Positions 13,575-24,373 of a stretch of 64,000 nucleotides of DNA are shown here, piece after piece. The notes under the pieces were generated by a model. It worked only from the letters and a program-made list of their open reading frames with translations. It was not told the DNA's origin and ran no database searches. This stretch comes from Pelomonas sp. BJYL3. GTDB taxonomy: Bacteria; Pseudomonadota; Gammaproteobacteria; Burkholderiales; Burkholderiaceae_C. Position 1 is the stretch's first letter. Each line of letters starts with the position of its first letter. The stretch lies in NCBI RefSeq assembly GCF_027257975.1, contig NZ_JANZKX010000002.1, positions 186,001 through 250,000 on the forward strand. Reading direction: 5' to 3'. The translations under genes were made by a program, and so were the position numbers.

Positions 13575-13973
13575 ATGAACCCCCTGCACCTCTTCCACAT
13601 CCAGACGGGCTCCACCGAACCCATCTACCGCCAGCTGCTGGAGCAGCTGCGGCGCCTGGTGGCGAGCGCCCAGCTCTCGGCGGGGCAGGAGCTGCCCTCG
13701 GTGCGCGAGCTGGCGGCGCATCTGGCGGTCAACCCGATGACCGTCTCCAAGGCCTACGGGCTGATGGAGGCGGAAGGTCTGGTGGAGCGCCAGCGCGGCC
13801 TGCCCATGCGGGTGGCGGCGCAGCACGGGCGGCGCCAGCCGCTGGGGGCGCGGGTCGAGCTGTTGCGTCCCACGCTGGAGAAGGCCGCCAGCGAAGCCCG
13901 CCAGCTGGAGCTCAAGCCCGCCCAGGCGCTGCAGCTGTTCCAGACCATTCTTGAAGAGGGAGACTCCGCATGA
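13575..13973 (+). CDS. GntR-family regulator, YtrA subfamily
   Basis: 132-aa repressor-type regulator. TEPIYRQLLEQLRRLVASAQLSAGQELPSVRELAAHLAVNPMTVSKAYGLMEAEGLVERQRG is the canonical GntR winged helix; the short (~50 aa) all-helical tail without a ligand-binding domain defines the YtrA subfamily. It overlaps the next gene (ABC ATPase) by ATGA, and the GntR-ATPase-permease order is the standard YtrA cassette, usually derepressed by cell-envelope stress or antibiotics. A candidate operator lies 14 bp upstream. Confidence 0.92.
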   Translation: MNPLHLFHIQTGSTEPIYRQLLEQLRRLVASAQLSAGQELPSVRELAAHLAVNPMTVSKAYGLMEAEGLVERQRGLPMRVAAQHGRRQPLGARVELLRPTLEKAASEARQLELKPAQALQLFQTILEEGDSA

Positions 13974-14896
13974 ACACCCAGACCCTGAACGCCTCCGGCC
14001 TGCAGATGGCCACGCCGCTGTCCAGCCAGTCCGTTGCGCTGTCGCCCGCCCTGGAGCTGCGCGGCCTGAGCCTGCGCTACGGCACGCAGACCGTGCTGGA
14101 CGGCATCGACTGGCAGCTGATGCCCGGCCAGGTGGTGGGCCTGCTGGGCCGCAACGGCGCGGGCAAGACCAGCCTGCTGGAATGCCTGCTGGGCCTGCGC
14201 GACCCGCAGCAGGGCGAGGCGCGGCTCTTCGGCTGCGATGTGCGTGCCCTGGACGACGCCACCCGCGCCCGCATCGGCTATGTGCCCCAGCAGTCCGACC
14301 TCTTCGAGCAGTTCACCCCCGCCCAGCTGCTGGCCTACTTCCGCAGCTTCTACCCGCGCTGGAACGAAGCGCTGGTGGACGGGCTGATGTCGCGCTGGGA
14401 GCTGCCGCGGGACAAGCCCATCGCCAAGCTCTCCGGCGGGCAGCAGCAGCGCCTGTCCATCGTGCGCGCCCTGGCCCATGGGCCGGACCTGCTGGTGCTG
14501 GACGAGCCCGTGGCTGCCCTCGACCCCCTGGGCCGCCGCGACTTCCTGCGCGAGCTGGTGGAGCAGGTGCTGGACCGCGGCACCACGGTGGTCTTCTCCA
14601 CCCACATCCTGTCCGACCTGGAACGGGTGGCCTTCAATGTGGCCTTCATGGCCCGAGGCCGCCTGGCCCTGCAGGCGCCGCTGGACGGGCTGATGGACCA
14701 GTGCCGGATCGCCCAGGGCACGCCCCAGGCCCTGCAGGCCGCCGCGTGCGGCGCCGCGGTGCTGTCACGCCGCACGCTGGGCGAGGGTCAGGAGCGCTGG
14801 CTGCTGCAATGGCCCGAGGGTCAGGTCTTGCCTGACGCCGCGGCCGGCCTGCAGGGCGTGCAGCTGGAAGACCTGTTTGAGGAGCTCACCGCATGA
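13970..14896 (+). CDS. ABC transporter ATPase of the YtrA cassette
   Basis: 308-aa CcmA-like ATPase. Walker A GRNGAGKT, Q-loop YVPQQSDLFEQFTP, signature LSGGQQQR, Walker B LLVLDEPVAALDP and switch His in FSTHILSDLERV are all intact. The C-terminal ~80 residues form the extra domain common in export-type ATPases. A perfect copy of the window's palindromic repeat (14821-14835) lies in this tail and encodes GQVLPD, about 25 residues from the end. It overlaps both neighbours (ATGA), so regulator, ATPase and permease form a tight operon. Confidence 0.93.
   Translation: MNTQTLNASGLQMATPLSSQSVALSPALELRGLSLRYGTQTVLDGIDWQLMPGQVVGLLGRNGAGKTSLLECLLGLRDPQQGEARLFGCDVRALDDATRARIGYVPQQSDLFEQFTPAQLLAYFRSFYPRWNEALVDGLMSRWELPRDKPIAKLSGGQQQRLSIVRALAHGPDLLVLDEPVAALDPLGRRDFLRELVEQVLDRGTTVVFSTHILSDLERVAFNVAFMARGRLALQAPLDGLMDQCRIAQGTPQALQAAACGAAVLSRRTLGEGQERWLLQWPEGQVLPDAAAGLQGVQLEDLFEELTA
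14821..14835 (+). repeat. Palindromic repeat TCAGGTCTTGCCTGA (in CDS tail)
   Basis: Exact 15-bp copy preceded by GGG, in frame near the 3' end of the ATPase gene. Confidence 0.75.
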
Positions 14897-16377
14897 ACGC
14901 CCTTCTTGCCCCCACGAGCCTGCTGCTGTCCGCCCCCTGGCGCTGGCGCCTGAACCAGATGCCGCTGCGCCTGCTGTGGGGCGGCGTGCTGGGGCTGGCC
15001 GCCCTGCTGGGCCTGCTGGCCTGGACCAAGGGCGTCACCGCTGCCGTCTTCGCCGCCGGCCTGGCGGCTGCCGTGCTCTTCGTCATCGCCTGGATGCTGA
15101 CGCTGTCCGGCCTGCGCCGCCAGAACCATCCGCACCTGGCCCGCCTGGTGCCGGCGCATGTGCCGCGCCTGCGCCTGGCCGTCCTGCTGCTGTGGGGCGT
15201 GCCCGTCGTGGTGGCCGGTGCCCTGGCCGCCTGGCTGCAGGCCGATGTCTGGAAGACCGTGCTGGTCACGGCCCTTTGCCTGAGCGTGCTGACCGCCCTG
15301 GTGCGCTGGCCCATGGGCTTCGTGCTGATCTGCTTCGCGCCGCCGGTCCTGGTGCCGCTGCTGCAGGGGAGCGCCCTCGGGCAGGGCCTGGTGCAGGCCT
15401 GGCTGGCCGTCTGGCAGTCCAACCCAGCCTGGCTGTGCCTGCCCCTGCTCGCCGGCCTCGCCCTGTTCCAGATGGACCTGATGGGCCAGGGCGACGCGGC
15501 CCACGCCCGGCGCTACGAGCAGATGCAGCGCCTGCTGGCCTCCATGCAGGACGGGGGCGCAGGCTACAACCCGCGCCACCAGGGCCGCTGGGGCCTGCGC
15601 GTGCTGTGGCTGTTCTCAACGCTGAACCGCTGGTACCTGGCGCGCCTGGTCCGCCGCCCCGAGCCCACGCTGCGCCACGTCCTGGCGCGCCTGGAGCTGC
15701 CGCTGTACGGCAGCGCGCACTGGACCATCGTCGTGGGCAGCATGATGGTCGTGCTGCCGGTGGTCGCGCTGGGCGGGGCGCTGATGTGGCTGCTGCTGCC
15801 TGACATGACACCGCCGGAGATGCACTGGCACGACATCGCCTGGACCTGGCCCCTGATGGCCCTCGGCCAGCTCTTCATGGGGATGATGATGGGCACGATG
15901 TTCAGCCTGGGCACCGCCCTGCAGCGCTCCCGGCGCGAGCAGGCGCTGCTGGTGCTGCTGCCGGGCCTGCCGCAGCAGGGCCAGTTGCGCGCCCGCCTGC
16001 TCGGCCGCCAGGTCCGGCTGATGCTGGGCCTGGCGGTGCCGGGGCTCCTGCTGCTCGGCCAGGCGGCCCTGCCGCCGCCCGGCGCCTTCCTGCAGGGTTT
16101 GGGCGTCGGTGCCCTGCTGGCCAGCCTGCTGCTGCTGCGCCGCTGGGACACCCGGACCTCGCCCGGCAGCACCGGCCTGCTGATCGTGGCCGTGCTCGGC
16201 GCCCTGGCCTGGCATGGCCTGCTGCCAGAGCACTGGGGCGTGGCACAGCGCTGCGGCCTGAGCGGCCTGGTGCTGGCGCTGGTCGCGGGGGCCTGGTTCC
16301 TGGGCCTGCGGCGCCTGCGCGACGAGGCCCTGCCGGCCTTGCCCTGGGGCCGCAACGCCTCCCGCCCCCTGGCCTGA
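14893..16377 (+). CDS. Large ABC-type membrane protein of the YtrA cassette
   Basis: 494-aa very hydrophobic protein with roughly ten to twelve predicted helices arranged in two halves separated by a soluble stretch (residues ~195-275, including NPRHQGRWGLRVLWLFSTLNRWYL). It is translationally coupled to the ATPase and is presumably its membrane partner in an exporter or an envelope-stress extrusion system. No specific family was recognised beyond its context. Confidence 0.8.
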   Translation: MNALLAPTSLLLSAPWRWRLNQMPLRLLWGGVLGLAALLGLLAWTKGVTAAVFAAGLAAAVLFVIAWMLTLSGLRRQNHPHLARLVPAHVPRLRLAVLLLWGVPVVVAGALAAWLQADVWKTVLVTALCLSVLTALVRWPMGFVLICFAPPVLVPLLQGSALGQGLVQAWLAVWQSNPAWLCLPLLAGLALFQMDLMGQGDAAHARRYEQMQRLLASMQDGGAGYNPRHQGRWGLRVLWLFSTLNRWYLARLVRRPEPTLRHVLARLELPLYGSAHWTIVVGSMMVVLPVVALGGALMWLLLPDMTPPEMHWHDIAWTWPLMALGQLFMGMMMGTMFSLGTALQRSRREQALLVLLPGLPQQGQLRARLLGRQVRLMLGLAVPGLLLLGQAALPPPGAFLQGLGVGALLASLLLLRRWDTRTSPGSTGLLIVAVLGALAWHGLLPEHWGVAQRCGLSGLVLALVAGAWFLGLRRLRDEALPALPWGRNASRPLA

Positions 16378-16388
16378 GACCCGCGCCT

Positions 16389-16411
16389 GCCGTCCTGATG
16401 CCATCCTGACG
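16389..16411 (+). promoter_or_regulatory. Direct repeat upstream of the kinase/regulator operon (candidate operator)
   Basis: TCCTGATG (16393-16400) and TCCTGACG (16404-16411) are spaced exactly 11 bp, the geometry of OmpR/PhoB/KdpE-family sites, and end 24 bp before the kinase start. The core is shared with the longer motif in front of kup and of the small membrane gene at 18773, suggesting autoregulation. Confidence 0.5.
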
Positions 16412-16435
16412 CGGGGCCTGCTACCGTAGCGCCCC

Positions 16436-17992
16436 ATGACCCTGCCACCCCTGCTCCAGCGCTGCCTGCCGCCCGCCCTCATCTGGGCGGCGTGCTGGGG
16501 CCTGATGCTGCGGGTGGACGCGCACGTGGAGCTGGCCAACCTGGTGCTGCTGCTGGTGCTGGCGTCCACGCTGAGCACGCTGTGGCTGCCCCTGCTGGCC
16601 TCCATGGTCCTGAGCCTGCTGGCGGTGCTGGCCTTCAACTGGCGCTTCGTCAGCCCCGAGCGCAGCATGGAGCTTCAGGGCTGGAGCCATCTGTGGTTGC
16701 TGGCGACCATGCTGGCGCTGTCCTGGCTGGTGGCCGTGCTGCTGAGCCGGCTGCGGCGCGAGGCGGACGCCGCGCGCCGCCATGCCGAGCAGGCTGACCA
16801 GCTGCGCGCCCTGGGCCAGGCGCTGCGGGACAGCCAGTCTCCCGTCGAGGCCGCTGCGCTGCTGCAGGGGCAGCTCGACGCCCTGCTGCCCACGCCCGCG
16901 CCCCTGCTGCTGGGCGCCGGCCCCTTGCCGCGTGAGAACCGCATGACCGAGGGCCAGCTGCTGATCGGCGATCCTGACGCGGACCAGCTCGCTGGCCTCT
17001 GGGCCTGCTGGCGCCAGGGCGTGCCCTTCGGCCCCGGTACCGGGCGCCACCAGGAGCTGCGGGCCTGGTACCTGCCCTTGCGCGGCCGCCTGGCCAGCCA
17101 TGGCGCGGCCCTGCTGATCCTGCCGGACGCCCTGCATCCCGACCCCGAGCTGCGCGCCCATGCCCAGTCCCTGTGCGACCAGATGGGCCTGGCCCTGGAG
17201 CGCCAGTCGGCCGAGCAGGCCGCGCGCCGCGCCCATGACGAGGCCGAGGGCCAGGCCACCCGCAATGCCCTGCTGGCGGCCATCTCCCACGACTACCGCA
17301 CGCCCCTGGCCACCATCATGGGCGCGGCCAGCTCGCTGCTGGATCAGGGTGAGCGTCAGACCCAGGCCCAGCGCCAGAAGCTGCTCGCCACCGTGCTGGA
17401 CGAAACCCGCCAGCTCTCCCGCATGACCGACAACACCCTGCAGCTGGCCCGCCTGGAGCGCGCCGGCCTGCAGCTGCGCATGGACTGGGAGGCGCCGGAA
17501 GAGGTGGTGGGCGCGGCCCTGCGCCGCGTGCGCCAGCGCCAGGCCCAGGCTGCGCAGCGCGTGCGCCTGCGCGTGGCCAGCGCCCTGCCCCTGCTGCAGT
17601 GCGACGCCGTGCTGCTGGCCCAGCTGCTGGACAACCTGCTGGACAACGCCCTGCGCTATGCGCCGGAGGGGCCCATCGAGCTGCTGGTGCGCCACGAGGC
17701 CGGCGAGCTGCTGATGGCCGTGCGCGACCGCGGCCCCGGCGTGCCGCCGGCCGCGCGGGCGCGCATCTTCGAGCCCTTCCAGCGGGTGGAGGAGCTGGAC
17801 CGCGAACGGCCGGACGCCGCCGGCAGCCGCCGCGGCGCCGGCGTGGGCCTGGCGGCCTGCCGGGCCATCGCCGCAGCCCATGGCGGCAGCCTGCGCCTGC
17901 GGGCCCGCAGCCATGGCGGCTCGAGCTTTGAATGCCGGCTGCCCGTGCAGGCGCCGCCGGCACTGGACACACCGATGGAGGACACGCCATGA
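16436..17992 (+). CDS. KdpD-like sensor histidine kinase without the USP/KdpD N-terminal domain
   Basis: 518-aa membrane kinase. Residues ~10-105 carry four hydrophobic helices of the DUF4118 (KdpD transmembrane) type, followed by a coiled stretch and a GAF-like region, then the H-box AISHDYRTPLATIMGAASSLLD (His about residue 285), N-box LLDNLLDNALRYAP, and G-boxes RDRGPGVPP and RRGAGVGLAACRAIAAAHGG. E. coli KdpD (894 aa) has an extra N-terminal KdpD/USP domain that is missing here. It overlaps the response-regulator gene by ATGA. No kdpFABC operon is nearby, but kup lies 3.5 kb downstream. Confidence 0.9.
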   Translation: MTLPPLLQRCLPPALIWAACWGLMLRVDAHVELANLVLLLVLASTLSTLWLPLLASMVLSLLAVLAFNWRFVSPERSMELQGWSHLWLLATMLALSWLVAVLLSRLRREADAARRHAEQADQLRALGQALRDSQSPVEAAALLQGQLDALLPTPAPLLLGAGPLPRENRMTEGQLLIGDPDADQLAGLWACWRQGVPFGPGTGRHQELRAWYLPLRGRLASHGAALLILPDALHPDPELRAHAQSLCDQMGLALERQSAEQAARRAHDEAEGQATRNALLAAISHDYRTPLATIMGAASSLLDQGERQTQAQRQKLLATVLDETRQLSRMTDNTLQLARLERAGLQLRMDWEAPEEVVGAALRRVRQRQAQAAQRVRLRVASALPLLQCDAVLLAQLLDNLLDNALRYAPEGPIELLVRHEAGELLMAVRDRGPGVPPAARARIFEPFQRVEELDRERPDAAGSRRGAGVGLAACRAIAAAHGGSLRLRARSHGGSSFECRLPVQAPPALDTPMEDTP

Positions 17993-18681
17993 GCCTGCGC
18001 GTGATGCTGGTCGAGGACGATCGCGAGTTGCGCCGCACCCTGCGCGACGCCCTGGCCCTGGAGGGCTACGAGGTGCAGACCGCCGCCAGCCTGGCCGAGG
18101 GCCATGCCTTGCTGAGCCATGCCGAGGCCCCGGACCTCGTGCTGCTGGACCTGGGCCTGCCCGACGGCGAAGGGGAGGAGCTGCTGCAGCGCCTGCGCCG
18201 CGAGCGCGGCACGCCGCTGCTGGTAATCTCTGCCCGCGAGCAGGACGGGGCCAAGGTCCGCCTGCTGGATGCCGGCGCGGACGACTACCTGGTCAAGCCC
18301 TTCTCCATCAGCGAGCTGCTGGCCCGCATGCGTGTGGCCCTGCGCCACCGCGGCGTGCACACGCGCGCGGCCGTCACCCGCTACGAGCAGGGCCGCCTGT
18401 GCGTGGACCTGGAGGCGCACCGCGTGAGCCTGGACGGCGAGGTCCTGCACCTCACGCCCACCGAGTTCAAGCTGCTGGCGCGCCTGGTGCGCAGCGCGGG
18501 ACAGGTCGTCACGCACCGGGCGCTGCTGGCCGATGTGTGGGGCCCCGAGTTCACCGAGCACACCCACTACCTGCGCCTCTACATGGGCCAGCTGCGCGCC
18601 AAGCTGGAGGCCGAGCCGGCCGATCCCCGCCTGCTGCTGACCGAGCCCGGGGTGGGCTACCGCCTGGCCGATGCGCGCTGA
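17989..18681 (+). CDS. OmpR/KdpE-family response regulator
   Basis: 230-aa regulator with a receiver domain (acidic pair ED-D at residues 9-11, phospho-acceptor Asp54 in VLLDLGLPDG, Lys in YLVKPFSISELLARM) and a C-terminal winged helix (LTPTEFKLLARLVRSAGQVVTHRALLADVWGPEFTEHTHYLRLYMGQLRAKLE) that is very KdpE-like. It is translationally coupled to the upstream KdpD-like kinase. Likely targets, judged from a shared motif, are its own operon, the small gene at 18773 and kup. Confidence 0.92.
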   Translation: MSLRVMLVEDDRELRRTLRDALALEGYEVQTAASLAEGHALLSHAEAPDLVLLDLGLPDGEGEELLQRLRRERGTPLLVISAREQDGAKVRLLDAGADDYLVKPFSISELLARMRVALRHRGVHTRAAVTRYEQGRLCVDLEAHRVSLDGEVLHLTPTEFKLLARLVRSAGQVVTHRALLADVWGPEFTEHTHYLRLYMGQLRAKLEAEPADPRLLLTEPGVGYRLADAR

Positions 18682-18702
18682 GGCAGCGGACCGCCCGTCC
18701 CA

Positions 18703-18719
18703 TATGCGTTCCTGATGAC
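18703..18719 (+). promoter_or_regulatory. 17-base motif, copy 1 (upstream of small membrane gene)
   Basis: TATGCGTTCCTGATGAC, identical over 17 bases to the copy 45 bp upstream of kup (21394-21410). It starts 21 bp after the response-regulator stop and 70 bp before the small membrane protein start, consistent with an activator site. Confidence 0.6.
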
Positions 18720-18772
18720 AGGGAGCCGATGCTGCGCTCCAGGGCCCGCACAGAGGCCTGGAGGACGACGGC

Positions 18773-18985
18773 ATGGCTCAGGGAGGCGCGGCGGGCGCGC
18801 AGTGCAGCAGGGGGGGCGAAAGCCGGCGGCAGCCGGGCCGGGGCGCGGGCGCCCTCAGGTGTCTGCTGCCGGCCCTGCTGCTGCTCCTGCCCTGCGCGGG
18901 CCTGGGCCTGCTGGCCAGCGCGCTGCCGCTGCTGCCCCCGGCACCCTGCTGGGGGCTGTGCCTGCTGCTCCTGCTGCGCCGCTGA
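18773..18985 (+). CDS. Small membrane protein downstream of the Kdp-like two-component system
   Basis: 70-aa protein with a polar, Gly/Arg-rich N-terminus (about 25 residues) and two closely spaced hydrophobic segments (LLPALLLLLPCAGLGLLASALPLL and CWGLCLLLLL). A good ribosome site (GGAGG, 8 bp before the ATG at 18773) and the upstream motif at 18703-18719 support a real gene. No family was recognised. The motif shared with kup suggests it belongs to the same regulon; a regulatory role on a potassium transporter is speculation. Confidence 0.5.
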   Translation: MAQGGAAGAQCSRGGESRRQPGRGAGALRCLLPALLLLLPCAGLGLLASALPLLPPAPCWGLCLLLLLRR

Positions 18986-19020
18986 ACGGCCCGGTCGCGG
19001 GACTGGCGGGGCGGCGGCTG

Positions 19021-19036
19021 GGGGTCAGGTCTTGCC
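19021..19036 (+). repeat. Half copy of the palindromic repeat at a gene end
   Basis: GGGGTCAGGTCTTGCC; only the left arm and loop match. On the minus strand it supplies the last codons and the TGA stop of the chalcone-isomerase-like gene. Confidence 0.6.
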
Positions 19037-19627
19037 ACCCAGCAGGGCGGGCTTGAGGCTGGTGTCCACGGGCTTCTCGCCCAGCCAGATCTTCAGCACG
19101 GCGTTGTAGAAGCCGATGTCGGGCAGGGTCTCGCCCACGGTCTTGCCGTTGACGGCCATCACCATGCCGGTGCCGGGCACCCAGTCGGCCGTCAGCGTGT
19201 CGCCCTTCTTCATCGAGCCCACATTGACGAAGACCTCGCCAAAGGCGCCCAGCTGGTTGACGAACTTGGAGCGCTCCGCCTTGTCGGTGTTGGCGGTGAT
19301 GCCGGCCATGAAGGCCTGGCCGAAGTCCTCGCCGGTGACCTCGCGCAGCATGGTGATGGAGAAGCGCCGCGGCCCCTGCGATTCAAAGACACCGGCCGGC
19401 GTGGTCTGCTTCTCCGTGAGGTAGAGGCCCATCACGTAGACCTTGACGATCACCCGCGTGCGGATGCCGGCGCCATTGAGCTTCAGCTCCTTGCCGGCGA
19501 CCTTGGCCGTGGGCTCGACGTTGACGCCGGCGACCTCCACCGCCTGTGCCGTCCAGGGCAGGGCCGCGGCCAGCAGGCCGGCGGCGACGAGGGTGCGGCG
19601 GGAGAGACGAGAGGGACGAAGACTCAT
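19025..19627 (-). CDS. Exported chalcone-isomerase-like protein
   Basis: 200-aa periplasmic protein. A signal peptide (SRRTLVAAGLLAAALPWTAQA) precedes a domain typical of bacterial chalcone isomerase-like proteins (Chalcone_3): KLNGAGIRTRVIVKVYVMGLYL, then ITMLREVTGEDFGQAFMAGI and GETLPDIGFYNAVLKIWLGEKPVD. Members lie in many proteobacteria; their reaction is unknown and flavonoid chemistry is not implied. The stop codon lies within a half copy of the dispersed repeat. It is 26 bp downstream of the chemoreceptor gene on the same strand. Confidence 0.88.
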   Translation of the reverse strand: MSLRPSRLSRRTLVAAGLLAAALPWTAQAVEVAGVNVEPTAKVAGKELKLNGAGIRTRVIVKVYVMGLYLTEKQTTPAGVFESQGPRRFSITMLREVTGEDFGQAFMAGITANTDKAERSKFVNQLGAFGEVFVNVGSMKKGDTLTADWVPGTGMVMAVNGKTVGETLPDIGFYNAVLKIWLGEKPVDTSLKPALLGGKT

Positions 19628-19653
19628 GGGCGCTCCTTGGTTCGAAGGGGGTG

Positions 19654-21207
19654 TCAGCGGCGCTCGTCCAGCTGGAACAGGCTGACGACCTGCTCCAGGG
19701 AATCGGCCTGGCTCTTCATGGAATCCGCGGCGGCGGCTGCCTGCTCGACGAGGGCCGCGTTCTGCTGGGTGCTCTGGTCCATCTCGTGGATGGTACGCGT
19801 GACGCGCTCGATGCCCTCGGTCTGCGATTCGCTGGCCATGGAGATCTCGCCGATCACGGTGGTCATGCGCTGCACGCTGGCCACCACGCCGTCCATGGTC
19901 GAGCCCGCCTGCTGCACCAGCTGGCTGCCCTGGGCGACCTTCTCGACCGAGTCGCTGATCAGGCTCTTGATCTCCTTGGCGGCGCCGGCGCTGCGCTGGG
20001 CGAGGCTGCGCACCTCGGCGGCCACCACCGCAAAGCCGCGGCCCTGCTCGCCGGCCCGCGCGGCTTCCACCGCGGCATTCAGGGCGAGGATGTTGGTCTG
20101 GAAGGCGATGCCGTCGATGACGCTGATGATGTCCACGATCTTCTTGGACGAGGCGTCGATCGAGCCCATGGTGCTCACCACGCGCGAGACCACCTCGCCG
20201 CCCTCGTGCGCCACCTGCGAGGCCTGCTGGGCCAGCTCGTTGGCCTGGTGGGCATTGCGGGCGTTGCGGCGCACGGTCTCGGTGAGTTCGTTCATCGAGT
20301 GCTTGGTCTGCTCCAGGGCCGCGGCCTGCGTCTCGGTGCGGGCCGACAGGTCCATGTTGCCGCTGGCGATCTCGGCGGAGGCCGAGGCGATGGACTCCGT
20401 GCCGTCTCGCACCTTGCCCACGATCTGCTTGAGCCCCTCGTTCATCTCGGCCAGGGCCTCCAGGAGCTGGCTGGTCTCGTCCTGCCCGCGGACCTCGATG
20501 CTGCTGCTCAGGTTGCCCGAGGCCACCTTGCGGGCCACGGCCACCGCGCCCCGCAGCGGGCCGACGATGCCGCGCGAGACCAGCACGCTGATCAGCACGC
20601 TGGCCGCGCTGGCGCACACGGCCAGCACGGCGATCACGGTGATGCTGCGGCTGGCCAGGGCCTGGGCATCGGCGCCGGCCTCGTCCATCTGCTTGTTCTG
20701 GGACTCGACGAACTTGTCCATCAGCGCGAGGTACTTGACCTGCAGCGCGCGCACGGAGAACAGGAACTTCAGCGTGGCCTGGTCCTTGTCGCCTTCGGCC
20801 ACCAGCTTCACGAAGCCGGCCTGGGCCGGCATGAACTTGCCGCGCACCTCGGTCATGGCCTTCAGCGCGGCCTTGCCTTCCTCGTCATTGACCAGCTGCT
20901 CCAGCGCCGCGATGGACTTCTCGTGCGACTGCAGCAGGCTCTCGACGGAGGCCAGCTCCTTCTTGACCTGCTCCTCGTTGGTCATGATCAGGGTGCTCAT
21001 CATGCCGCGCGAGGCATCGCCCAGCTCGGCCTTGGCCTTGTTGGCCAGGTAGGTCTTCTGGAAACCAGCGTTGATGGCCTCGTTCACATCGCGGCTGAGC
21101 GCGCGCGTGCTGGAGATCGCCAACCCTGCCATCACAAGCAGCAGGACGATCACCACCCCAAAACCCAGGGTCAGACGCTGACCGATTCGAAGGGAACTGA
21201 ACTTCAT
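19654..21207 (-). CDS. Methyl-accepting chemotaxis protein
   Basis: 517-aa chemoreceptor. Helix 1 ([20 protein letters not shown]) and helix 2 ([23 protein letters not shown]) flank a ~150-residue periplasmic four-helix-bundle sensor domain (about residues 35-185). A HAMP region follows ([21 protein letters not shown]) and a long signalling domain with the conserved hairpin tip [43 protein letters not shown]. No CheR-binding pentapeptide is seen at the C-terminus (QLDERR). The start MKFSSLRIG at 21207 is chosen because upstream codons have no membrane or signal features. Confidence 0.93.
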
Positions 21208-21393
21208 CGCGGCACACTTTCTCTGACGGATGAGGCCGGCGCCGGGACGCGCGCACAGCCATCCCCCGGGAATGCGGGGGTCTTTCAGTCTTCCACAGGC
21301 GCGCTTTTCCGGTGGCACCAGGGACGTGACTTTTGGCGCTGTTTTGGTGCCTTCAGCGCCCGCCTGTGGCGCGTTCGGCACTGGATCGGCACT

Positions 21394-21410
21394 TATGCGT
21401 TCCTGATGAC
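21394..21410 (+). promoter_or_regulatory. 17-base motif, copy 2 (upstream of kup)
   Basis: TATGCGTTCCTGATGAC, identical to 18703-18719, ending 45 bp before the kup start codon. Its position suits binding of an OmpR/KdpE-type regulator at the kup promoter. Confidence 0.6.
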
Positions 21411-21455
21411 GCCAAGGCGACAGTCCGGCCATCCCCACTGCCGGCTGCTGTGCCC

Positions 21456-23363
21456 ATGGCCTCCCAACTCCCTTCCCCGGCCCCCGACGGCCACGCTCCT
21501 CAGGGCCTGGCCGCCCTGACCCTCGGCGCCATCGGCGTCGTCTACGGCGACATCGGCACCAGCCCGCTCTATACCGTCAAGGAGATCTTCCTGCCGGCCA
21601 CGGGCGTGGCGCTGGCCGCGCCCAACATCATCGGCGCGGTGTCCACCATCCTGTGGGCGCTGATGCTGGTGGTCTCGCTCAAGTACGTGCTGCTGATCCT
21701 GCGCGCGGACAACCGCGGCGAGGGCGGCGGCCTGGCATTGACCGCCCTGGCCGCGCAGGCCGTGAAGGACCGCCCGCAGCTGCGCGGCGTGCTGCTGCTG
21801 CTGGGCGTGTTCGGCGCCACCCTGTTCTATGGCGACAGCATCATCACGCCGGCCGTGTCGGTGATGGGCGCCATCGAGGGTCTGGAGGTGATCACGCCCA
21901 CGCTGAAGCCCCTGGTCCTGCCGCTGTCGCTGCTGATCCTGGTGGGGCTGTTCGTGATCCAGCGTTTCGGCACGGCGGTGGTCGGGCGGCTCTTCGGCCC
22001 GGTGATCACCCTGTGGTTCGCGGTGCTGGCCGGCATGGGCGTCTGGCACATCGCGCAGGAGCCCGGCATCCTGGCCGCCCTGAACCCCGTGCACGCCTGG
22101 CACTTCCTCACGGAGCGCGGCTGGCACCTCTTCGCCACCGTGGGCGCCGTCGTGCTGGCCCTGACCGGCGCCGAGGCACTCTATGCCGACATGGGCCACT
22201 TCGGCGCCCGCCCCATCCGCCTGGCCTGGACCGGCCTGGTCCTGCCCTCCCTGGCCCTGAACTACATGGGCCAGGGCGCCCTGCTGCTCAAGGACCCCGG
22301 CGCCATCGAGAACCCCTTCTACCGGCTCTTTCCCGAAAGCGCGCTGCTGCCCGCCGTGGTGCTGGCGGCCCTGGCGGCGGTGATCGCCTCGCAGGCCGTG
22401 ATCTCGGGCGCCTATTCCATGACCAAGCAGGCCATCCAGCTGGGCTTCCTGCCCCGCATGGAGGTGCGCAACACCTCGGCCCGCGAGGCCGGCCAGATCT
22501 ACATGCCCGGCGTCAACTGGGCCCTGCTGGCGGGCGTGCTGGCGGCCGTGCTCTTCTTCGGCAGCTCCTCGGCCCTGGCCGGCGCCTACGGCATCGCCGT
22601 GACCCTGACCATGATGATCACCACGGTACTGACCTTCTTCGTGGTGCGCCACGGCTGGGGCCTGCCGGCGCCCGTGGCCTACGGTGCCACGCTGTTCTTC
22701 CTGGCCCTGGACGGCCTGCTGGTGGCCGGCTGTGCGATCAAGTTCCTGGACGGCGGCTGGTTCCCCCTGGCCATGGGCGGCCTGCTCTTCCTGGTGATGA
22801 GCACCTGGGCGCGCGGCCGCAAGCTGCTGATGCAGGGCATCCAGCGCGACGGCCTGGCCCTGCTGCCCTTCCTGCAGGGCATCGCCGCCAGCGACAGCGG
22901 CGTGTACCGCGCCAGCCGCACGGCGGTCTATGCCGTGGCCAACCCGGACACCGTGCCCCAGGCCCTGCTGCACAACCTCAAGCACAACCAGGTGCTGCAC
23001 GAGCAGAACCTGATCCTGACCGTGGTCTACGCCGAGCGGCCCCACGTGCCTGAAGGCGAGCGCGTGGAGCTGGCGCCGCTGGTGCCGGGCTTCTGGCGCG
23101 TGACCCTGCACTTCGGATTCATGGATGCGCCCGACGTGCCGGCCGCCCTGGCCCTGTGCAAGCCCCTGGGCCTGGAGGTGCCGTCTTTCGAGACCAGCTA
23201 TTTCCTCAGCCGCGAGACCGTGGTGCCCACGCCCGGTTCCGGCATGGCCCACTGGCGCGAGCGCCTCTTCGCCACGCTGAGCCGCAATGCCGGCAGCGCC
23301 GCGGAGTACTTCCGCCTGCCGGACAACGCCGTGGTGGAGCTGGGCACGCGGGTGCAGATCTGA
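21456..23363 (+). CDS. kup: Low-affinity potassium transporter Kup
   Basis: 635-aa polytopic membrane protein, normal length for Kup. Diagnostic motifs are present: [21 protein letters not shown] near residue 25-45, [43 protein letters not shown], and [15 protein letters not shown]. About twelve helices are followed by a ~170-residue cytoplasmic C-terminal domain that ends in [14 protein letters not shown]. It imports potassium with protons. The start at 21456 follows the 17-base motif shared with the Kdp-like regulator region. Transcription ends at a hairpin (23404-23444). Confidence 0.97.
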
Positions 23364-23509: not shown

Positions 23510-24373
23510 ATGAACATCATCGTCAAGGAAGAACTCAAGGCCTATATCGACCCGCTGACGCCCGAGGAGCATGAGGCCCTGGAGCGCAGCATCCTGGCCG
23601 AGGGCTGCCGCGACGCCCTGGTGCTGTGGGGCGACGTGCTGGTGGACGGGCACAACCGCTACGGCATCTGCCAGAAGCACGGCCTGCCCTTCCAGACCAT
23701 TCAGCATCCGCACTTCAAGTCCATGGAGGACGTGCACCTGTGGATGATCGACCAGCACCTGGGCCGCCGCAGCGTCTCCGACTTCCAGCGCGGCGTGCTC
23801 GCCCTGCGCAAGAAGGAGATCCTGACGGAGCGCCGCAGCCGCAAGCTGGCCGAGAGCGCCGAGCAGATGGCCGCGCAGACGGCCTCGGGCGAGGCCGGCG
23901 TGGCCGATGCCGCCGAGGCGCCCTGGGACGGCCAGGCCGAGCTGCCGCCCGTTCCTGCCCTGAACACCCGCGAGGCGGTGGCCCGGGCCGCCCGCATCAG
24001 CGCGGCCCAGGTCCAGCAGATCGAGAAGATCCAGAAGAGCGCCGCCCCCGAGCTGGTGGCCGCCGTGCGCGCCGGCACCGTCTCGCTCAACACCGCGGCC
24101 ACCGTGGCCGCCCTGCCGGTGGAAGAGCAGCAGGCCGTCGTGGCCGCCGGCAAGGACGAGATCAAGCAGGCGGCCAAGCGCGTGCGCCAGGCCAAGGCCA
24201 AGCCCAAGGAGGGCGCGGCCGAGGGTGACGAGAAGCTCAACAGCGCCGGCCTGCCGCCCGTGACCGCCGAATCCGCCACCGAAGCCCAGATCAAGGCCCT
24301 GCAGGCCCGCGTGGCCGAGCTGGAAGCCGAGAACGCCGCGCTGCGCGGCCAGCTGGCGGCGCTCCAGGGCTGA
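23510..24373 (+). CDS. ParB/Srx-fold protein with C-terminal coiled coil
   Basis: 287-aa protein. The N-terminus (LTPEEHEALERSILAEGCRDALVLWGDVLVDGHNRYGICQKHGLPF) is a ParB N-terminal-like domain with the VDGHNRY motif; MIDQHLGRRSVSDFQRG follows. A central helical region contains a possible HTH (TREAVARAARISAAQVQQIEKI) and repeated Ala/Lys-rich helices. The C-terminus is a leucine-zipper-like coiled coil (ALQARVAELEAENAALRGQLAAL). It resembles stand-alone plasmid- or island-type ParB-like proteins rather than the chromosomal partition ParB; no parA or parS sites are nearby. Confidence 0.8.
   Translation: MNIIVKEELKAYIDPLTPEEHEALERSILAEGCRDALVLWGDVLVDGHNRYGICQKHGLPFQTIQHPHFKSMEDVHLWMIDQHLGRRSVSDFQRGVLALRKKEILTERRSRKLAESAEQMAAQTASGEAGVADAAEAPWDGQAELPPVPALNTREAVARAARISAAQVQQIEKIQKSAAPELVAAVRAGTVSLNTAATVAALPVEEQQAVVAAGKDEIKQAAKRVRQAKAKPKEGAAEGDEKLNSAGLPPVTAESATEAQIKALQARVAELEAENAALRGQLAALQG

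Follow-up and report, generated by a model that had tools for sequence, protein, structure and literature searches.

A KdpDE-like kinase-regulator pair linked to kup and a shared putative direct-repeat operator in Pelomonas sp. BJYL3 and other Burkholderiales

The closest described relatives of the system reported here are the sensor kinase KdpD and the response regulator KdpE of Escherichia coli, whose linked target is kdpFABC. The E. coli KdpE site is described as two 6-bp direct repeats, TTTATA and TTTACA, 5 bp apart (PMC3264566), and the N-terminal part of KdpD is reported to phosphorylate KdpB (PMC11018627). For the potassium transporters Trk and Kup, expression in E. coli is described as constitutive (PMC5458449). 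Linkage of kup to a KdpDE-type pair is already in print for Azotobacter chroococcum and A. vinelandii, where KupA is distal in a kdpD-kdpE-kup cluster and is stated to be co-transcribed with the regulators KdpD1 and KdpE1; the part of that account concerned with the cluster gives the regulation without a described test and names no operator, SPFH or trkH member (PMC4465626). Here we describe a 64,000-nucleotide (nt) stretch of Pelomonas sp. BJYL3, hereafter the window (contig C12, positions 186001-250000, of a 5,238,745-b genome), in which a short KdpD-like kinase, a KdpE-like regulator, a small open reading frame (ORF) and kup lie behind copies of one direct-repeat operator, TNATG-N3-TCCTGATG. 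With a probability of about 80%, we read the kinase and regulator as a KdpDE-family paralogue pair that would be dedicated to potassium uptake by Kup and would drive four promoters through this operator, the fourth preceding a remote SPFH gene. Genomes, contigs and loci used for comparison are given by handles beginning with G, C and L. The features in the window are as follows.

16396-16411, plus strand: operator before the kinase gene, TGATGCCATCCTGACG; the full direct repeat spans 16393-16411
16422-16427, plus strand: -10-like hexamer TACCGT, 10 nt past the operator, with TGC in front (extended -10) and the ATG 8 nt on
16436-17992, plus strand: short KdpD-like sensor histidine kinase with DUF4118, HisKA and HATPase_c and no PF02702 match
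17989-18681, plus strand: KdpE-like OmpR-family response regulator, a paralogue of the genome's own KdpE
18702-18717, plus strand: operator before the small ORF, ATATGCGTTCCTGATG
18728-18733, plus strand: -10-like hexamer GATGCT, 10 nt past the small-ORF operator
18773-18985, plus strand: hydrophobic ORF of 70 amino acids (aa), possibly a small membrane protein, open here and in both congeners with the operator upstream in each
21393-21408, plus strand: operator before kup, TTATGCGTTCCTGATG
21419-21424, plus strand: -10-like hexamer GACAGT, 10 nt past the kup operator
21456-23363, plus strand: kup, potassium transporter with K_trans and K_trans_C

Searches against Pfam and NCBIfam bore out the gene calls of a preliminary description of this DNA (KdpD-like kinase, KdpE-like regulator, Kup). 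The kinase shares with E. coli KdpD the DUF4118 transmembrane domain and the HisKA and HATPase_c kinase core, which are its only Pfam domains, but unlike E. coli KdpD it has no N-terminal KdpD domain (PF02702); the NCBIfam KdpD model aligns to it over profile positions 422-893, with a score of 209.5 where the cut-off is 1123. The regulator consists of a receiver and a winged helix, its best NCBIfam model is KdpE, below the equivalog cut-off (241.5 against 325), and its nearest relative among solved structures is KdpE (4kny). Recognition-helix arginines and a wing threonine matching the residues R193, R200 and T215 named in PMC3264566 appear to be kept, as mapped by eye. Both Pfam domains of Kup are present, and both NCBIfam kup models were matched below their cut-offs (676.3 against 883; 531.1 against 539.6). 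As for the operator, its 11-bp period agrees with that of E. coli KdpE, whereas the half-sites are TNATG and TCCTGATG and not TTTATA and TTTACA, and the linked target is kup and not kdpFABC.

A 17-base repeat, TATGCGTTCCTGATGAC, had been noted twice in the window, and it is indeed exact at 18703-18719 and 21394-21410; within three mismatches it was found three times, against 0.10 expected from window shuffles. The related direct repeat seen ahead of the kinase was likewise recovered, with TCCTGATG at 16393-16400, a 3-nt spacer and TCCTGACG at 16404-16411 in an 11-bp step. A motif search of the whole genome, as the preliminary description had proposed, returned 12 matches with up to three mismatches, where the reversed control returned 5. 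Three of the 12 are exact, one has two mismatches and lies inside a long ORF, and eight have three. The third exact copy, at C12:845784, lies 638 kb away, its first base 90 nt ahead of the start of a 652-aa SPFH/Band_7 protein, so that the exact copies stand before kup, the 70-aa ORF and the SPFH gene, and a diverged copy before the kinase. The predicted regulon includes this SPFH gene in addition to the two targets first noted.

The geometry of these promoters is conserved. A site matching at least 10 of the 12 positions of TNATGNNNTCCTGATG was present in 36 of 45 promoters from 20 systems, compared with 27 of 9000 shuffled upstream regions and 1 of 45 on the reverse strand; the 20 systems include near-copies (three congeners; G047 and L112) and are not independent, and gene starts were partly estimated from tblastn. 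These 36 promoters entered a spacing test, which dropped the kinase promoters of G009, G035, G069, G014, L112, Azomonas and the Cellvibrionaceae assembly and the kup promoters of G069 and the Cellvibrionaceae assembly. An NAnnnT hexamer starts exactly 10 nt past the site in 32 of them, while the other spacings from 0 to 23 nt gave counts of 0 to 7; the remaining four are all SPFH promoters and carry GACAAA. Half-site intermediates such as TTATGCGTTTTTTACG precede kup in G069 and, in G188, the second of its kup genes. A weaker site with the -10 pattern, TTATGCCTTCCTGTCG, was also found at G000:C22:221351-221382 and G001:C113:72242. It was not counted as a fifth regulon member, being present in two of the three congeners with no gene beginning shortly after it on that strand, as far as the sequence was read.

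Among the 16 kinase promoters with a clear site, 15 have an in-frame ATG (14) or GTG (1) 6-9 nt after the -10 hexamer, and in the exception, G061, an ATG is present at 7 nt but in another frame. Given this distance, the transcript should begin at or beside the start codon, and the kinase mRNA is predicted to be leaderless. The corresponding distances in the window genome are 31 nt for kup, 39 nt for the small ORF and 59 nt for the SPFH gene.

The operator also tends to occur where the kinase does. In 13 genomes, TNATGNNNTCCTGATG gave 23 matches in 12 of the 13 (reversed control, 0), located in kinase promoters (6), kup promoters (11), SPFH promoters (2) and long ORFs (4). With site and -10 pattern combined and two mismatches allowed, the window genome and two congeners gave 20 matches against 7 in the reversed control; 12 of these 20 fall in four promoters that all three species share, those of the kinase, the small ORF, kup and the SPFH gene. 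The pattern TTATGCNTTCCTGATG was found in 41 of 399 family genomes and its reverse in none; it occurs in 38 of the 71 genomes bearing the kinase (E at most 1e-70) versus 3 of the 328 lacking it (Fisher p 7e-30, a value that overstates independence, as the genomes are related). A comparison by hand placed 38 of the 46 TTATGCNTTCCTGATG matches on the kinase contig, no more than about 4 kb from the kinase gene. The other eight are a kup promoter on a separate contig (G159), SPFH promoters (G000, G009), a Band_7 promoter (G400) and four sites in long ORFs (G177, G243, G298, G248), the first three of these last being the only kinase-less genomes with a site.

Several candidate sites were set aside. 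The sites in G177, G243, G298 and G248:C46 were rejected as promoters for lying inside long ORFs without the -10 pattern, as were those of L090, L109, L091 and L103 for lying inside long ORFs. In L019 and L020, from a one-mismatch search that matched 7 of 60 genomes, the sites stand at unrelated genes, and in L077, L228 and L229 an 11/12 match falls inside the kinase gene without the -10 pattern.

The kinase gene is commonly linked to kup. Twenty regions, mostly with shorter-frame kinases, were hand-picked from the kinase-match table, leaving out the short G106:C38:98146 and G019 and the full-length KdpD-like matches, and kup was found in 18 of them; the two without it were G031 (SPFH-kinase-regulator) and G014, where only 1.5 kb of contig follows the regulator. 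Of at least 575 relatives retrieved from named genomes with the kinase profile, the best 80 were kept; 10 of these loci carry kup with the pair, and most others carry kdp genes. In five of those ten (a betaproteobacterial assembly, a Burkholderiales assembly, Azomonas macrocytogenes, a Cellvibrionaceae assembly and Hylemonella), the regulator is nearer to the one described here than to KdpE. The order kinase-regulator-kup recurs across Burkholderiales and in Azomonas, which has the same trio as the Azotobacter KupA-KdpD1-KdpE1 cluster and carries TTATGCGTTCCTGATA before kup, with no clear site before its kinase. No kup was found in G295 at E 1e-60; a TrkH-family gene there lies behind the same operator, upstream of the kinase and regulator, trkH taking the place of kup. 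In L233 (G353) and L234 (G031), kup lies on another contig than the kinase-regulator pair, with a diverged operator at the 10-nt spacing before it. The diverged site before one kup scores 11/14 in G353 and 9/14 in G031, where chance matches reach about 8-10; three of the 19 loci in this kup-locus scoring had no anchor and were unscored. Taken with the site/kinase co-occurrence and the fixed promoter geometry, the recurrent gene order and the trkH exchange uphold the earlier proposal of a Kup-centered, Kdp-like regulon; membership of the small gene is plausible and unproven.

We propose that the kinase would phosphorylate the KdpE-like regulator, probably at low potassium, and that a regulator dimer would bind TNATG-N3-TCCTGATG where a -35 box would lie, 10 nt ahead of the -10, activating its own kinase-regulator operon, kup, the gene for the SPFH membrane scaffold and that for the small membrane protein. 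Regulator binding, activation and potassium as the signal are what we infer from sequence.

The signal may be other than potassium. The kinase might respond to stress of the envelope, to turgor or to pH, and Kup would then be one among a number of membrane targets, a possibility that we take seriously while holding it to be unlikely. It draws on the recurrence of SPFH genes as targets or neighbors. The remote SPFH protein of the window genome contains a Band_7 domain, with no relative found by solved-structure sequence and no NCBIfam model, both at E 0.01; a close orthologue occurs in four of the 13 genomes (G000, G001, G002, G009), with the operator before all four. In G031, G285 and G353, which belong to one genus, a more distant SPFH gene lies just ahead of the kinase, preceded by a diverged operator at the 10-nt spacing in G353 and, by eye, in G031, and in G400 the operator stands ahead of a 284-aa Band_7 protein. 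The kinase match in G031, G285 and G353 begins only at query residue 88-90, and Pfam finds no DUF4118 in the kinase of G353, both of which also fit a different input. Against a signal other than potassium, the commonest linked target is kup or, in G295, trkH. That SPFH genes recur in three settings speaks for some functional link with the kinase-regulator system. A rather doubtful extension would make the SPFH protein a working part of the circuit, its level set by the same regulator, that organizes or gates Kup and feeds the kinase. It would be the sensor in the genus of G031, G285 and G353, whose kinase seemingly lacks a transmembrane sensor domain of its own, and leaderless kinase mRNAs would keep the sensor scarce.

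The sign of regulation could also be reversed, with the regulator repressing kup, the SPFH gene and its own operon, since a repressor could also act from a site directly next to the core promoter. We regard this as improbable. No -35-like hexamer was seen by eye at a matching distance in these promoters, and this, together with the rigid 10-nt spacing, is what one would expect if an activator bound a box occupying the -35 position. PhoB-type class II activator promoters have a direct-repeat box in place of the -35, at a fixed distance from the -10; the promoters described here resemble them in both respects and differ in half-site and regulator. E. coli KdpE, moreover, is described as up-regulating its target.

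Alternatively, the genome's canonical KdpE might bind the sites, placing kup in an ordinary Kdp regulon. The absence of kdpFABC, as first noted, applies to the window and not to the genome: KdpA (Pfam) is encoded at C12:747276-749024 and a full-length KdpD at C12:739868-742504, about 0.5 Mb from the window genes, and kdpB, kdpC, kdpF and kdpE were recognized by eye in the same locus. The regulator belongs to the KdpE family, and by eye the genome's own kdpF promoter carries a related box, CTTTACATCTTCTTGATG, followed after 10 nt by GACCTT. We nevertheless judge this alternative very improbable. In a 120-genome set, nine of the 12 site-bearing genomes (G001, G009, G013, G016, G035, G047, G061, G072, G077) have no match to KdpA or the KdpD N-terminal domain, so that a Kdp locus does not explain their sites. 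The site also stands before the paralogous kinase itself. In a tree of 96 regulators (those of 102 loci with a long enough match), the window regulator falls in a 19-member clade with support of 98/99, in which 18 members are linked to kup, and the genome's own KdpE lies outside it. These results support the pair as a putative paralogous, dedicated system beside a canonical kdp locus with its full KdpD. Other kup-linked regulators fall inside the KdpE clade, the kup label needing four changes on the tree, which suggests that kup may have been captured more than once. This second set of KdpE-clade regulators next to kup comprises L083, L084, L086, L087, L154, L168, L178 and L180; some of its kinase promoters show, by eye, TTTAC/TTTTTA repeats about 10 nt ahead of a -10-like hexamer.

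That the repeats arose by chance or form a functionless dispersed element, which can show 17-base identity, has a negligible probability and is already contradicted by the three exact genome copies, each upstream of an ORF, by the absence of the reversed pattern from 399 genomes and by the -10 spacing kept in 32 of 36 promoters.

Several observations count against a Kup-dedicated paralogue pair acting through this operator. Nine of the 45 promoters have no site at the 10/12 level, although several look, by eye, diverged and not absent, and exact TTATGCNTTCCTGATG is missing from 33 of the 71 kinase-bearing genomes. In G285 (L236, the third species of its genus), no operator was recognized before the kup genes and none was seen in the 240 nt before the SPFH gene. 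The operators of this regulator and of KdpE are alike, so cross-talk may occur. In Sinorhizobium fredii, where kup fell at low K+, KdpE is reported to bind kdpFABC and not kup (PMC9239096), although that protein is a canonical KdpE.

The 70-aa ORF is likely a real gene. It stays open in all three species of the genus, at 70 aa in the window genome and 67 and 58 aa in its congeners, has a possible Shine-Dalgarno sequence by eye, and its GC content by codon position looks coding. No amino-acid constraint was detected (substitutions 17/17/17 by codon position; 26 aa differences against a neutral expectation of 28.6, P 0.21), and tblastn at E 1e-8 returned nothing in the 20 fetched regions, congeners included, with no genome-wide search made. 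The GATGCT-GCGC -10 region that its promoter shares with the regulator-kup promoters of G009 and G047 had raised the suspicion of a mere remnant, which was rejected on the open frame in three genomes, the possible Shine-Dalgarno sequence and the coding-like GC. The -10 region of the promoter at 18703 resembles the regulator-kup promoters of G009, G035 and G047; this promoter may be the ancestral kup promoter, kup having later gained its own copy.

Other genes adjoin the locus. An ABC ATPase and a putative permease (13970-16377) end 58 nt ahead of the kinase start codon and may belong to the system. Matches to this ATPase precede the kinase in G001, G002, G015 and G160 as well; those in the same position in G188, G400 and G145 share only 28-30% identity with it. 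The gap between regulator and kup holds, on the minus strand (19025-21207), a chalcone-isomerase-like gene and a chemotaxis receptor, as in both congeners; this pair was not seen in the other fetched regions. A regulator-kup gap of about 2-3 kb is likewise found in G015, G160, G254 and G182. The gene after kup (23510-24373) has no Pfam match, is ParB-like by eye, and keeps its position in the genus, G160 and G254.

In the open-licence PMC literature, we found no report of the operator, the SPFH member, the trkH member or the leaderless kinase, although leaderless transcripts were not a named search target. If a KdpDE paralogue controls Kup whether or not a genome also has kdpFABC, a large group of bacteria would regulate potassium uptake through different wiring; the operator makes this regulon directly testable. 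The system would also illustrate how a paralogous regulator can drift toward another half-site, and through the SPFH member that keeps recurring, membrane scaffolds would be connected with potassium transport.

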